From assembly GCA_001803565.1 (NCBI GenBank), contig MHDQ01000132.1, forward strand, positions 1 to 18,536: a DNA stretch of 18,536 nucleotides, read 5' to 3'. Numbering within the stretch: position 1 is the first letter of the stretch; each line of letters opens with the position of its first letter. The notes under the pieces were generated by a model that was not told the DNA's origin, made no database searches, and saw only the letters and a list, made by a program, of their open reading frames with translations. Made by a program: the position numbers and the translations under genes. Below are positions 6,170 through 14,682 of the stretch, piece by piece. This DNA comes from Nitrospinae bacterium RIFCSPLOWO2_12_FULL_45_22. Its GTDB lineage: Bacteria > 2-12-FULL-45-22.

Positions 6170-6399
6170 TTGTAATTACTCAATAAGTTGTGGAAAATGA
6201 CCATTGAACCAGACGCGGAGGCGCAAAGTCTTTATAATAATTAACTATTGTCAATTCATTTAGAATACGGATATAATAAATAGTACGGATTAACACCGAT
6301 AAAAAATTTAAGCAAATCCGTCAAATTTCTGTTATCCGTGTCCTATTTAAGTCCTTCTCCGCGCCTCTGCGGTTACCCCAGGGTATTGAGCAATTACAA
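6170..6399. repeat. Triple-nested palindromic element upstream of rnhB
   Basis: Outer arms TTGTAATTACTCAATA (6170-6185) and the complement at 6384-6399 match at 15 of 16 bases. Middle arms ACCAGACGCGGAGGCGCAAA (6208-6227) pair with 6353-6375. Inner arms built on AATAGTACGGATTAACACCG (from about 6279) pair imperfectly with 6333-6348. The element ends about 35 bases before the first codon of the rnhB frame. Confidence 0.8.
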
Positions 6400-7442: not shown

Positions 7443-7533
7443 TTTTGGACGCAGATAAACACAGATTATTAGGATATAATCCTGAATTAGGCAAATATTT
7501 ATCTGTGCATATCTGCGAAAATCTGTGTCCAAA
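7443..7533. repeat. ggacgcagat / atctgcgtcc-type inverted repeat
   Basis: TTTTTGGACGCAGAT (from 7443) is inverted at ATCTGTGTCCAAA (ending 7533), with further CACAGAT and ATCTGCG copies inside. The centre has an AGGAT-ATA-ATCCT hairpin (7471-7483). The right arm ends about 15 bases before the ATG of the dehydrogenase gene and supplies an accidental upstream GTG (7525). Confidence 0.75.
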
Positions 7534-8961: not shown

Positions 8962-10356
8962 ATGAAGGTACTGTTTATATATCCCGATATTAAATCGGGA
9001 AACTTTAAGAGCTTTCACTTCGGTATTGGCTCTATTGCAGCGGTTCTGAAAGAGGCCGGTCACGAAGTATCATTATTATATTTGCAAGACGAACTGAAGA
9101 ACGAAGAATTAGTGAAGAGGGTCAAAGAAGTCAATCCCGGCCTAATAGCCTTTTCTACTGGCACGCAGCAATGGCGGTATGTAAAGGAATACAGCCAGGC
9201 CCTTAAAACCGCCCTGGCTACCCCTATTATCTGTGGTGGTAACCATGCAACTCTAGCACCGGATGAAGTAATTGCTAATGGAAGCATAGATTGGGCCTGT
9301 GTAGGCGAAGGGGAGCTGGCCATGTTAGAGTTGGTGGCTAGGCTAGAGAAGGGGGAACCGGTTAAGGATATTGCCAATATCTGGCAAAGGACTAAAAAGA
9401 AGGTAATAAAGAATACCCCGCGGCCATTAATTGACGATTTAAACCCCTTACCCTTTCCTGAGCGGGATATTTTCCAGTGTGATAAGTTGTTAAAAGATAA
9501 TGGCTATTATTTGACCGTAATGGCGGGCAGGGGTTGCCCTTATGCCTGCACCTATTGCTGCAACCCTGCCTTTAACCGCCTCTATGATGGGCAGGGGAGA
9601 GTTGTTAGAACGCGATCTCCTGAGAGGGTTATAGAAGAAATAACCGATCTACGGAGCCGGTATCGCATAGAGCTAATAGATTTTATGGATGAAGTTTTTC
9701 CCTTTAAAAGGGATTGGCTAACCCAATTCTGTCAGCTTTATTCCGAGAAAGTTCGGCTCCCTTTTCACCTGATGATCAGGCCAGAGATGGCCCAGAAAGG
9801 GAAGCTGAAACTATTGAAAGAAGCAGGCTGTGAGCAGGTTCGTATCGGAGTAGAATCGGGCAATGAAGAGTTCAGACGCACCCTCTTAAATCGTAATGTA
9901 TCCAATAAAGATATTATTAAGGCCTTTGAGGAGGCCGACAAGCTCGGCCTAAAGACCTATTCTTTTAATATAGTGGGCCTGCCGGACGAAACCCCCGCCC
10001 TGATCCGCGATACTATAGCCCTGAATAAACTGATAAGGCCTAATCATATCCAGGTCTCGGTCTTTTATCCCTATCCCGGGACAGAGCTATATCGGCTCTG
10101 TCAGGAAAAAGGGTATTTTACCGGGGAGGAGCGGACTTCGTTCTTTGCCAACAAGTCTGTCCTCCAGATGCCCACCATTTCTACCAAAGAGATTGCCAGG
10201 CACTATAAAAGATTTGTACTTACGGCTTTACTAATAAAACTAAGGAAAGAAAAAATAGGATTGATCATTAATATATTAAAAACCTTCTTCAGGAGCCAGG
10301 GTAAATGGGGTCTTATCCGACATTATTATAAAGCCCTCCTTTTAGCCTTTAAATAA
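8962..10356 (+). CDS. B12-binding-domain radical SAM protein
   Basis: A 464-residue protein. The N-terminal 150 residues are a cobalamin-binding-like Rossmann domain (MKVLFIYPD, GIGSIAAVLKEAGHEVSLL, PIICGGNHATLAPDE, DWACVGEGELAMLEL). It lacks an obvious DxHxxG motif, so if cobalamin binds it does so base-off without that histidine. The radical SAM barrel follows, with C192-x3-C196-x2-C199 in GRGCPYACTYCC binding the 4Fe-4S cluster, then DFMDE and IGVESGNEE, typical of the BchE/Elp3-like class. The C-terminal 60 residues are basic and helical. Members methylate or rearrange unactivated carbons in lipids, hopanoids, pigments and antibiotics. The start is ATG with AAGGGAG. It sits between a sugar dehydrogenase and another radical SAM gene. 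The substrate is unknown. Confidence 0.92.
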   Translation: MKVLFIYPDIKSGNFKSFHFGIGSIAAVLKEAGHEVSLLYLQDELKNEELVKRVKEVNPGLIAFSTGTQQWRYVKEYSQALKTALATPIICGGNHATLAPDEVIANGSIDWACVGEGELAMLELVARLEKGEPVKDIANIWQRTKKKVIKNTPRPLIDDLNPLPFPERDIFQCDKLLKDNGYYLTVMAGRGCPYACTYCCNPAFNRLYDGQGRVVRTRSPERVIEEITDLRSRYRIELIDFMDEVFPFKRDWLTQFCQLYSEKVRLPFHLMIRPEMAQKGKLKLLKEAGCEQVRIGVESGNEEFRRTLLNRNVSNKDIIKAFEEADKLGLKTYSFNIVGLPDETPALIRDTIALNKLIRPNHIQVSVFYPYPGTELYRLCQEKGYFTGEERTSFFANKSVLQMPTISTKEIARHYKRFVLTALLIKLRKEKIGLIINILKTFFRSQGKWGLIRHYYKALLLAFK

Positions 10357-10395
10357 GAGAACCCCAAATTATGCACCGCAGACGCAAAGTTCAGT

Positions 10396-10625
10396 AAGGA
10401 GTAAGCCGTGAGGAGTATCTGCTAGTACTTCGTTACATTAAAATGTTTTCACTGCGTAACCAAGCCTTTGCCACAAAGTCACGAAGACACAAAATTCCTA
10501 ATTCATTGTTTTTAAGTTTTTAAAGAAAAAATAACTCTTTGAGCCTTAGTGCCTTTGTGGCTAACACAAGGTTTTATTGTATACTTTTTAATGAAACGGT
10601 CTGCTAGCTGCTTACTGCTCACTCC
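10396..10625. repeat. Nested palindromic element, gccacaaag core
   Basis: The inner arms GCCACAAAGTCACGAAGACAC (10470-10490) pair with the complement at 10538-10561 (GTGCCTTTGTGGC). The outer arms around 10396-10443 (AAGGAGTAAG...GCTAGTACTTCG...CATTAAAA) pair with 10586-10625 (TTTTAATGAAACGG...GCTAGC...CTTACTGCTCACTCC). A lone ACCGCAGACGCAAAG arm lies just before (about 10374). It fills the whole 287-base gap between the two radical SAM genes. Confidence 0.72.
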
Positions 10626-10643
10626 CAAGAGGGGGGATTAGTA

Positions 10644-11690: not shown

Positions 11691-12209
11691 ATGACCGATC
11701 AATATATTGAAATAATTCAAGGCGATATTACCAAAGTTGAAGTTGATGCCATTGTAAATGCGGCCAACAAGACTCTTCTGGGAGGTGGTGGGGTTGACGG
11801 CGCTATCCATCGGGCGGCAGGTCCGAAGCTTTTAGAAGAATGCAGTACCTTAGGAGGATGTGAAACAGGAGAGGCAAAGATTACCAGAGGGTATAATCTG
11901 CCGGCCAAATTTGTGATTCATACCGTGGGGCCGATCTGGCACGAAGGAAAAAGCAATGAAGCCGAGCTTCTGAGGAATTGTTATCTTAATTCCCTGAAGC
12001 TGGCCGAGGAGCACGGCCTAAAAACAATTGCCTTTCCCGCTATCTCTACTGGAGCTTACGGATACCCTATTGAAGAAGCGGCAAAGATAGCCATAAAGGC
12101 CGTAAGAGATTATCTTAAAAATTCCAAAATAGAGAAAGCTATCCTTGTGCTTTTTAGTGACAGAGACCGTCAAGTTTATGAAAGAACCATGAAACAGGTT
12201 TACGGCTAA
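11691..12209 (+). CDS. ymdB: Macrodomain O-acetyl-ADP-ribose deacetylase, YmdB type
   Basis: A 172-residue stand-alone macrodomain, likely hydrolysing O-acetyl-ADP-ribose or removing mono-ADP-ribose from proteins. The family motifs are all present: [17 protein letters not shown] (10-26) with catalytic-site Asn residues in [18 protein letters not shown] (31-44), [14 protein letters not shown] and [12 protein letters not shown] (115-126), the phosphate loop. Similarity to E. coli YmdB runs throughout, including the N-terminal GD and C-terminal YER segments, and the length is normal. ATG 11691 has GGAG at 7-base spacing. It stands alone: 90 bases after the SPASM gene and followed by a large nested palindrome, then a strong terminator. 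No ADP-ribosyltransferase toxin is visible next to it. Confidence 0.95.
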
Positions 12210-12256: not shown

Positions 12257-12462
12257 ATTGTAACCGTTCAGCCACCAAGGCACTAAGTCACCAAGAAGCT
12301 CAAAACTTAAAATGCAAAGTCTAAAATTAAGGTAATTATTCCTCCCTGCCTGTGCGGTGCACGCAGACAGGAGCTTTGCACTTTTAGCTTTGCGTTTTAC
12401 ATTTCCTTGGTGCCCTTGTGTCTTAGTGGCTGATAAAGCTTAGCCGGGTGAACGGTTACAAT
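12257..12462. repeat. Triple-nested palindromic element with perfect 14-bp ends
   Basis: The outer ends ATTGTAACCGTTCA (12257-12270) and the complement (12449-12462) match perfectly. Directly inside, GCCACCAAGGCACTAAG (from 12271) pairs with 12404-12430. Deeper, a short dyad of the AAAATGCAAAGTCTAAAA kind (about 12309-12326 against 12381-12399) surrounds a GC-rich core hairpin, CCTGCCTGTGCG...CGCAGACAGG (12345-12371). An 18-base unpaired insert (12431-12448) separates the two right-hand arms. No ORF. Confidence 0.85.
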
Positions 12463-12851: not shown

Positions 12852-14075
12852 TCAAGGATAACTTCGTTCTGCTTCCTTTAACTGAGGGGTTATCAAAGCC
12901 CTTTCTGCCCGAGCTATCTCGTCCAGAAAGGCTTGATATTTTTTTTCTATGATAGGCCAGGAATAATTCTCTTTTACATAGCCTTCTCCATTGATGGCTA
13001 ACTGCTCCCCCAGGCGTTTATCCCGTAATAATCGCTCCAGAACAATCCTAAATTCGTCATAACTGTAATAAAACAACCCACCATTACTACGCAGGCATTG
13101 CCCCTTCAATACTGCGCACTTCCCATTAACGATAACGGGTGTCCGGGTCAGCCAACTCTCTAACAAAAGAATAGAGAAGCTTTCATAAGGCGAGGGCATG
13201 ACTGCAGCCGCAGCCGCCTGGAGGGCATCAAACTTGTCTTCTTCAGACAGTTGTCCTAGATAGATGATATTAGGATGTTGAGGAATAGGCATAATGGCAT
13301 TACCTATCAAGACCAATTTCAGGGGGCTATTAGTCTCGCGCTGGTAACGGAGAAAGTAATAAACTATCTCCTGGCACCCTTTAGACTTATCAACCCGGCC
13401 TACATAGATAATAAATTCTTCTTCTAAGCTATATTTACTCCTGAATCTCTGGCCATTAAAGTCTTTGGGCGGGTCAACTCCTACCCCGATAGTCTCTGAA
13501 GGGATATGATGATTATTGAACCGTTTCCACACCAGATCTGCTTCTTCAGGTGTAGAATAGATAATGGCTTTGGGGAGCAAAAAAAGCTCGTCGAATATAC
13601 TAAGATAGAGGGGTGGCTCATCATGGCCCAGGGGGATTAGGAGGGCCTTTTCTTTTACCCGGCGCAGGCCATAGTAGGTATGGGCATAGAGATAGGTGAC
13701 AAAGATAAAAAAATCATATTCGCTGGCCCTTGCCTCTAAAGCCTGTTGCAGGGAAGAGGAACATGGGCCCTGTAGTTCCATCCAGCGCTCTTCTTCCTCT
13801 TTGGTATGTTCACTACCATAAATCTTTTGGGTTAACTGGTCAAAGGCCTTTATGTCGCGGGGATTATCTACCGGAAAGCGCCAGACTGTTATGCCATTAA
13901 CCTCCCCTTTACCTTCAGGATACTCATTCCGCCAGCTCATATAATCTATGGCACAGGTAGTAAATACCTCAATAGTCCAGTATTTGCTGAGATGTTCTGC
14001 CAGGAGCCGACAGAGAAACTCTGCCCCACCCGTAACTTCTAAACCGTAGCGCTGAACTACAAAAGCAATCCTCAA
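12852..14075 (-). CDS. GT4-family glycosyltransferase
   Basis: A 407-residue GT-B glycosyltransferase. It opens MRIAFVVQRYGLEVTGGAE, with the GGAE acceptor loop at 16-19. IPLGHDEPPLYL (147-158) closes the first domain. The second domain begins FIIYVGRVDKSKG (221-233) and carries PSPYESFSILLLE, the E-x7-E nucleotide-sugar pair (E298, E306). The length is normal and no key motif is missing. The start is TTG at 14075, with AAGGA about 7 bases upstream; the TTG overlaps the TGA stop of the preceding gene (TTGA), so translation is probably coupled. It ends in TGA. With the coiled-coil protein it forms a two-gene unit read from a promoter at 14683-14712. It is not close in sequence to the other GT4 enzyme of this window. 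The transferred sugar is unknown. Confidence 0.92.
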   Translation of the reverse strand: MRIAFVVQRYGLEVTGGAEFLCRLLAEHLSKYWTIEVFTTCAIDYMSWRNEYPEGKGEVNGITVWRFPVDNPRDIKAFDQLTQKIYGSEHTKEEEERWMELQGPCSSSLQQALEARASEYDFFIFVTYLYAHTYYGLRRVKEKALLIPLGHDEPPLYLSIFDELFLLPKAIIYSTPEEADLVWKRFNNHHIPSETIGVGVDPPKDFNGQRFRSKYSLEEEFIIYVGRVDKSKGCQEIVYYFLRYQRETNSPLKLVLIGNAIMPIPQHPNIIYLGQLSEEDKFDALQAAAAAVMPSPYESFSILLLESWLTRTPVIVNGKCAVLKGQCLRSNGGLFYYSYDEFRIVLERLLRDKRLGEQLAINGEGYVKENYSWPIIEKKYQAFLDEIARAERALITPQLKEAERSYP

Positions 14076-14581
14076 CCCTGGTCCTTGCTCCCCTCAGGAT
14101 TATCCAACCTTTGCTCCAGGATTTTACTGCGATCTTCTAGCGCCTGGCAGCGGTTCTTCAAGGCCTGATTTTCTGCCAGGAGCTTTTCTATTTCCTCCCG
14201 CAAAAAATTTATAAAGGCAGCTACTTGCCGATTAAATCTTACCTGCTTATGAAAAAACACACCCACCATGAATTGCACCGGTGATATCAAGAGTCGTTTA
14301 CTCAGGACAATAAATCTCCCCAGCAACGGTCTATGTGATGTTATGCTATGCTCTCTGGTTATATCGGCGTACTCATTAAGCATCTTGAGATGGTACAGGA
14401 ATTTATCTTTGATAGGGATATTATCCGCTGCCGGTTGAATAGTAAGATTTTTTATCCTCTCGATCTCCGCCTCAGTATAGAGTCCCAGGGCTTTTTTTTG
14501 CTCTATCCGGCTCTGGATTTGCTGGATTAATGTCTTCAGATTAATGGTATTATCTCTTGTGGAGAATGTCTCACCCTTCAT
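14072..14581 (-). CDS. Coiled-coil protein with RPLLGRFIVLSKR-type motif
   Basis: A 169-residue protein. The middle (about 85-125) reads RPLLGRFIVLSKRLLI...FHKQVRFNRQV, a motif I recall from N-terminal parts of some methyltransferases and glycosyltransferases of surface-glycan loci, where it precedes a helical segment. Here it stands alone, followed by a C-terminal coiled coil (about 125-160, LREEIEKLLAENQALKNR) and a charged end. The first 75 residues are helical and charged. It may be a membrane-peripheral adaptor for the glycosyltransferase encoded next; its stop overlaps that gene's TTG start. ATG 14581 has AAAGG about 9 bases upstream. No catalytic motif is visible. The possibility that it is the leftover N-terminal half of a split methyltransferase is open. 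Confidence 0.72.
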   Translation of the reverse strand: MKGETFSTRDNTINLKTLIQQIQSRIEQKKALGLYTEAEIERIKNLTIQPAADNIPIKDKFLYHLKMLNEYADITREHSITSHRPLLGRFIVLSKRLLISPVQFMVGVFFHKQVRFNRQVAAFINFLREEIEKLLAENQALKNRCQALEDRSKILEQRLDNPEGSKDQG

Positions 14582-14682
14582 GGCTCAGCCTTTGTCGCGA
14601 TCCAGTCCTTAACTCTTCCCGCATATTTCCGCAGACGATAACTATTTTATATAAGGAAAATTCCTATCCTTCCTGGCTACTC

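Follow-up and report, generated by a model that had tools for sequence, protein, structure and literature searches.

The window analysed here is a stretch of 18,536 nucleotides from Nitrospinae bacterium RIFCSPLOWO2_12_FULL_45_22, and in the intergenic DNA that follows its open reading frame at 11691-12209 lies a block of inverted repeats set one inside another (12257-12462, Table 1). The original prediction described this block as a palindrome three deep, with perfect 14-bp outer ends, a second dyad whose left arm begins directly after the outer one and a GC-rich hairpin in the middle. Each of these particulars is borne out, including the abutment of the left arm of layer 2 (the dyad GCCACCAAGGCAC..) on the outer arm, and so is the nesting itself; the depth is not, since the block has four concentric layers, one more than described, the A/T-rich third layer having been missed. 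On the right, layer 2 and the outer arm are separated by an asymmetric segment, the complement of which extends the right-hand end to GTAACCGTTCACCCGGCTAAGC, a sequence that resembles the IS66 end GTAACCGTTCACCCAGCATGAGC. The interval 12260-12459 is bounded by GTAACCGTTCA..TGAACGGTTAC, a terminal inverted repeat (TIR) that begins 5'-GTAA, as is characteristic of IS66-type miniature elements (MITEs). The strand folds far better than its shuffles, with z values of -6.5 as DNA and -7.3 as RNA, and 0 of 200 shuffles folded as well.

Table 1. Features of the nested block at 12257-12462 and of a second nested block in the window
Feature	Position	Strand	Description
Outer arm, left	12257..12270	+	IS66-type terminal inverted repeat, GTAACCGTTCA from 12260; 14/14 complementary to 12449-12462
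Layer 2, left arm	12271..12295	+	GCCACCAAGGCACTAAGTCACCAAG, GxxExxY-element-type end; family also flanks the GxxExxY genes of L296 and L189
Layer 3, left arm	12296..12332	+	A/T-rich, AAAATGCAAAG type; also lies beneath different outer layers in L009 and L013-L015
Innermost GC-rich hairpin	12345..12371	+	CCTGCCTGTGCGGTGCACGCAGACAGG; clean 27-nt insertion, at f 0.49 of host
Layer 3, right arm	12372..12405	+	pairs with 12296-12332
Layer 2, right arm	12406..12430	+	CTTGGTGCCCTTGTGTCTTAGTGGC
Asymmetric 18-nt segment	12431..12448	+	TGATAAAGCTTAGCCGGG
Outer arm, right	12449..12462	+	IS66-type terminal inverted repeat; pairs with 12257-12270
Second nested window block	6172..6397	+	GTAATTACTCAATA..TATTGAGCAATTAC; flanked by exact copies of the 8-bp target duplication AAGGATTT

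IS66 elements have ends that start GTAAGCG and are flanked by 8-bp duplications (PMC11946415). Exact 8-bp duplications border 21 of 140 GTAA..TTAC dyads where 0.0 were expected, examples being the copy at L005 (TAAAATTA) and the second nested block of the window, and one family in the genome begins exactly GTAAGCGTTCAGC. A general scan of all dyads for target duplications returned 34, compared with 1 in the shuffled genome; these include a 9-bp family (GGGTGTGGC..) and others. The original prediction saw no transposase in the window; a matching one is encoded elsewhere in the genome. The single IS66 TnpC gene (Pfam DDE_Tnp_IS66, contig C275) is preceded, 133 bp upstream of its start, by GTAACCGTTCACCC, which is also the end of the window family; the other end of that element is lost in a scaffold gap. 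Judged by these ends, the outer layer appears to be a MITE of the IS66 type, and its mobiliser is predicted to be the IS66 transposase elsewhere in the genome. The block resembles IS66-family MITEs in its GTAA ends, in the 8-bp duplications of its family, in having no gene of its own and in the presence of a matching transposase in the same genome. It differs from them in an interior of stacked, unrelated palindromic modules and in the missing duplication of the 12257-12462 copy, at which 1 of 8 bases matches. Because that copy has no duplication, its own insertion is neither dated nor proven by the duplication test.

These same properties bear on the precedent offered by the original prediction, namely REP-linked or IS200-like transposases, by which REP-type palindromes would be moved through hairpin-recognising Y1 (RAYT) enzymes. 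Such REP/BIME sequences are, like the block, short intergenic hairpins, and five Y1_Tnp genes are indeed present in the genome. The nested families are missing around all five, however, and single-strand transposition by Y1 enzymes leaves no target duplications, whereas the outer layer shows 8-bp ones together with IS66 ends. On the surroundings of the Y1_Tnp genes we rejected this explanation, the least probable of those considered here.

Our sample comprised 1.63 Mb of the genome, as stretches, from a fragmented 3.67-Mb assembly that is 85% complete. Inverted repeats with a score of at least 13 within 400 bp number 191, whereas Markov-shuffled versions of the same 60 contigs yield 12, and the 1.63 Mb contain 45 distinct outer/inner nested combinations. 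Within the window, the concentric plan expected in other gaps is found in dyads that hold further dyads at 1-201, 1528-1752, 2142-2290, 6172-6397 and 10391-10640. The block at 12257-12462 has 55 matches across the genome, several of them 98-99% identical. Because three copies at unrelated loci (L001, L002 and L003) are ~99% identical over the whole nest, the nest must be able to move as a unit. Other copies differ layer by layer. L005 (L052:11740-11912) is the same nest minus the 27-nt hairpin, with the hairpin point at 85 of 173 bases, and hairpins of this type are also found off-centre in L156 and in copies from Desulfobacterota. Contigs C4, C11, C81 and C292 retain the outer two layers around a different core; L009, L014 and L015 have layers two and three inside another outer dyad (AACCACGGATGAACACGG..); in L013 and the window block at 10458 the outer dyad is different again; and in L011 and L012 the cores have been exchanged, not just added. 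Since the layers recur in such different combinations, we could rule out one long degenerate palindrome. The original prediction thus stands in so far as it saw independent modules stacked on one another, and is incomplete in that the nest also spreads as one block; travel of the nest as a single unit, which, if invariable, it had named as contrary evidence, does occur, but alongside the mixing of layers.

The GTAATTGCTCAATA family, which includes the block at 6172-6397 and has five further members, likewise keeps the same ends around several different interiors. L056:10592-10650 might be taken for the ancestral empty site of the 6172 block, a reading that we rejected: part of the inner arm survives there, which marks it as a deletion derivative. 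Some other "empty" copies may also be deletion derivatives, and an empty copy need not be the older state. A separate nest was noted at L100:2599-2733, where a TA-flanked insert with a GTCATTCCGGG..CCGGAATGAC palindrome, which resembles repeats known in other bacteria, lies at the exact centre of an element with a 9-bp duplication.

The arms of the inner layers are made of quasi-periodic words of 7-9 bases, and arms of this kind surround genes of two families, GxxExxY (TIGR04256, a PD-(D/E)XK nuclease) and the S23/IVP four-helix bundle protein (PF05635). The genome contains 12 GxxExxY and 9 IVP genes or remnants. A dyad encloses 20 of these 21 (P<=0.031 each; P<=0.0013 for 16), as judged against 1500 random placements. 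The arms around these genes belong to families that are also seen as layers (GCCACAAAGGCACCAAG, ACCACAGAGGCACGGAG, AACCACAAAGACAC, AAACCACGAGATTAACAC, GGACGCAGATTTGCGC, AGAACAAAGAGCAAAGA, GGTTATTAGGTCATT, TGCAAAATTAGCAATTAGC and others), and 63 of 313 dyads have arms like the flank of such a gene on another contig, versus 4 of 313 random pieces. Layer 2 of the window block is itself a match to the flank of the L296 gene. Pfam places L296, L189 and L320 in PDDEXK_3 and L306 and L326 in 23S_rRNA_IVP. Two GxxExxY remnants have IS66-type ends together with exact 8-bp duplications (CTGTTGAT, GGCATCCT), for which null placements gave 0 of 400. Among the open reading frames checked within 12257-12462 there is no GxxExxY or IVP frame, and the arms alone remain. 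As part of the explanation that we favour, the inner modules are probably the ends, or the gene-less remnants, of small elements in which arms enclose one GxxExxY or S23/IVP gene.

Two further palindromes of the window touch on these genes. At 7443-7521, CGCAGATATGCACAGAT..ATCTGTGTTTATCTGCGTCC is of the family found on either side of the GxxExxY gene L302, and the dyad at 1-201 (TTCACCGCAGAG..), which has a possible degraded GTAA-type end (GTAATCATTCACC), has an arm family that also flanks the GxxExxY gene L320 in Bacteroides finegoldii.

The junction of the TIR with layer 2 is found in >100 genome stretches outside this genome, in Desulfobacterota, Latescibacterota, KSB1, Cloacimonadota, Aerophobetes, Dadabacteria and others, and 17 of the 35 complete elements that bear it have exact 8-bp duplications. 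One such element, L189, has a complete GxxExxY gene, and L200, L204, L225 and L248 are deletion derivatives of it. Isolate plasmid records from other phyla place 10 of 20 GxxExxY or IVP genes inside such dyads (shuffle p 0.005), with no dyad around the other half; the gene on a Bacteroides finegoldii plasmid has TTCACCACAGAGGACGCAGAGG arms, of the family seen at 1-201 in the window. None of the plasmid records carries the window block, and viral contigs gave one match for each of the two gene families. An orthologous plasmid site in Nostoc has both states: C052 and N. edaphicum carry the arms together with an IVP gene, and C057 (two plasmids) and UHCC 0926 lack them. In ATCC 53789 related arms enclose another core that has no gene, and a different nested palindrome adjoins the site in C057 p_H. 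The target at this site is not obviously a hairpin, there is no clean duplication and the junctions are imprecise.

Two observations concern CRISPR-associated loci. In Anabaena 90 and Pseudanabaena (the L329/L331 pair) an S23 gene lies between cas6 and cas4 in both, and the heptads flanking the Pseudanabaena gene are direct, not inverted. In the Nitrospinae genome, L161 (contig C291) has a CRISPR-like array at 9200-10400 (GTTTCAATCCCGTATAAATCCGGTCTAGTCTTCCTAC), and the same contig holds the only reverse transcriptase match of the genome, at 14072-14662 in a 1003-aa frame that is possibly RT-Cas1.

Presence or absence at an orthologous site, together with the target duplications, mixed layers and gene cargo, fits mobile DNA and makes it highly improbable that these repeats are instead regulatory binding sites or terminators. 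That the block forms a very stable hairpin would suit such a role, and the multicopy heptad repeats of Geobacter metallireducens have been annotated as sites for a regulator, IHF/HU (PMC2700814). A secondary regulatory use of the block could accompany its mobility.

The original prediction placed insertion at the exact centre of a dyad. Insertion points are not spread evenly: among 43 distinct nested pairs in which the inner dyad could have been placed elsewhere, 27 (63%, binomial p 0.002) have it in the central 40% of the host, a result to be read with the caveats that dyad detection is biased and that independent insertions are few. The insertions that could be mapped on host copies lie at f 0.49, 0.43, 0.61, 0.50, 0.86, 0.58, 0.56 and ~0.65 (the last from an alignment), so that seven of the eight fall at f 0.43-0.65. 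The insertion at f 0.86, in L150, has a 9-bp duplication, and GC-rich hairpins lie within host arms in L260 and L196. Insertion at the centre is a preference with clear exceptions, not a rule, and the prediction holds for the central tendency and fails for its exactness. We infer that this preference may reflect insertion at hairpin loops, in extruded or single-stranded DNA; insertion at hairpin tips, as 23S rRNA intervening sequences (IVSs) do, is plausible but not proven.

Ordinary nested transposition would require no such preference. Elements would insert at random into element-rich intergenic DNA, and the concentric cases would stand out because both arms are needed for recognition. This account is consistent with the off-centre insertions, with GC-rich hairpins that land anywhere and with a dyad detection that favours inserts between intact arms, but it leads one to expect even placement in the outer loop, against the central bias just described, and dyads of the same families enclose the TIGR04256 and PF05635 genes. 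We regard it as rather improbable. Slightly more credit, though still well short of an even chance, is due to break and repair at hairpin tips, the main rival for inner layers without duplications. Here the centre would be a fragile site, at which extruded hairpins are cut or stall forks during replication, and repair or template switching would add hairpin DNA through microhomology, with no element enzyme acting on the inner layers. Most inner layers are without a clear duplication, short stretches of sequence are often common to both sides of a junction (GCCAC where the TIR meets layer 2; CCGCAG for the pair L056/W), and both the exchanged cores of L011 and L012 and the imprecise Nostoc junctions would be explained. 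The clean 8- or 9-bp duplications at several inner insertions (L073, L061; L150) argue against it, as do inserts that are whole, recognised element families and not random filler, and a search for the hairpin-cutting nuclease SbcD gave no match in this genome, which is 85% complete. SbcD was found in 13 of 14 control genomes, and its apparent absence here might let long palindromes persist.

Among known systems, the 23S rRNA IVSs that carry an S23p/IVP gene also have complementary ends and a long stem around one small gene, with the PF05635 family inside related arms, and they too were inserted at hairpin loops, having replaced small ones (PMC4990558). In contrast to them, the arms here are quasi-periodic and present in many copies, GxxExxY can take the place of the IVP gene, the window copy is gene-less and the block is intergenic rather than in a 23S rRNA helix. 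In Lobosphaera mitochondria, LIMP palindromes share stems of short units and two complementary arms round a loop; they have a fixed 7-nt loop and occur in the organelle only, and neither nesting nor a gene is reported for them (PMC4524435). The small dispersed and STRR repeats of cyanobacteria deserve comparison as well.

These cyanobacterial repeats are short, intergenic and multicopy, and are built of heptad or octad words. The present sequences share these features and their quasi-periodicity with them and with the heptad repeats of Geobacter (PMC2700814), and differ in that they are arranged as paired arms on either side of an IVP or GxxExxY gene and as layers of nests. In the open-licence literature we found nothing on nested palindromes, cyanobacterial small dispersed repeats or IS66 MITEs, no title on repeats among papers naming GxxExxY, and no paper joining "four helix bundle protein" with repeats. 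Judged from that literature, the novelty of the nested-element picture is likely but not certain.

In our favoured reading, the block is probably a composite non-autonomous element, an IS66-ended MITE holding gene-less hairpin modules that were layered near its middle, lost their genes and also spread as a whole. We prefer this because of the outer ends, the duplications and the matching end beside the transposase gene, because the same arms surround two gene families, and because layers mix, the inner hairpin is present or absent in matching copies, the Nostoc site varies and whole blocks move. An IS66 transposase of the cell would move the outer MITE and generate the 8-bp target duplication. 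Hairpin-ended elements of the GxxExxY/S23 type would have inserted into, or been captured by, such MITEs, and modules added one after another close to the centre of a hairpin already present would have built the nest; we infer that the GxxExxY and IVP proteins may take part. Deletion would then have removed the central genes, and the finished composite would have spread as a unit through IS66.

These findings join the orphan families GxxExxY and S23/IVP with unexplained intergenic palindromes in one picture, that of small hairpin-ended mobile elements, and the nests preserve the sequence in which insertions took place and point to hairpin tips as favoured targets. More speculatively, and with the odds somewhat against it, a widespread and undescribed class of hairpin-ended mini-elements, each with quasi-periodic arms and one GxxExxY nuclease or S23-type gene, may insert preferentially into the tips of other hairpins and so build nests; these would be the DNA counterparts of 23S rRNA IVSs and of many short repeats in bacteria that lack an explanation, and probably the source of both. 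What rRNA intervening sequences do and where they come from have been unclear since 1990 (PMC4990558), and intergenic copies with orthologous empty sites make both directly testable.
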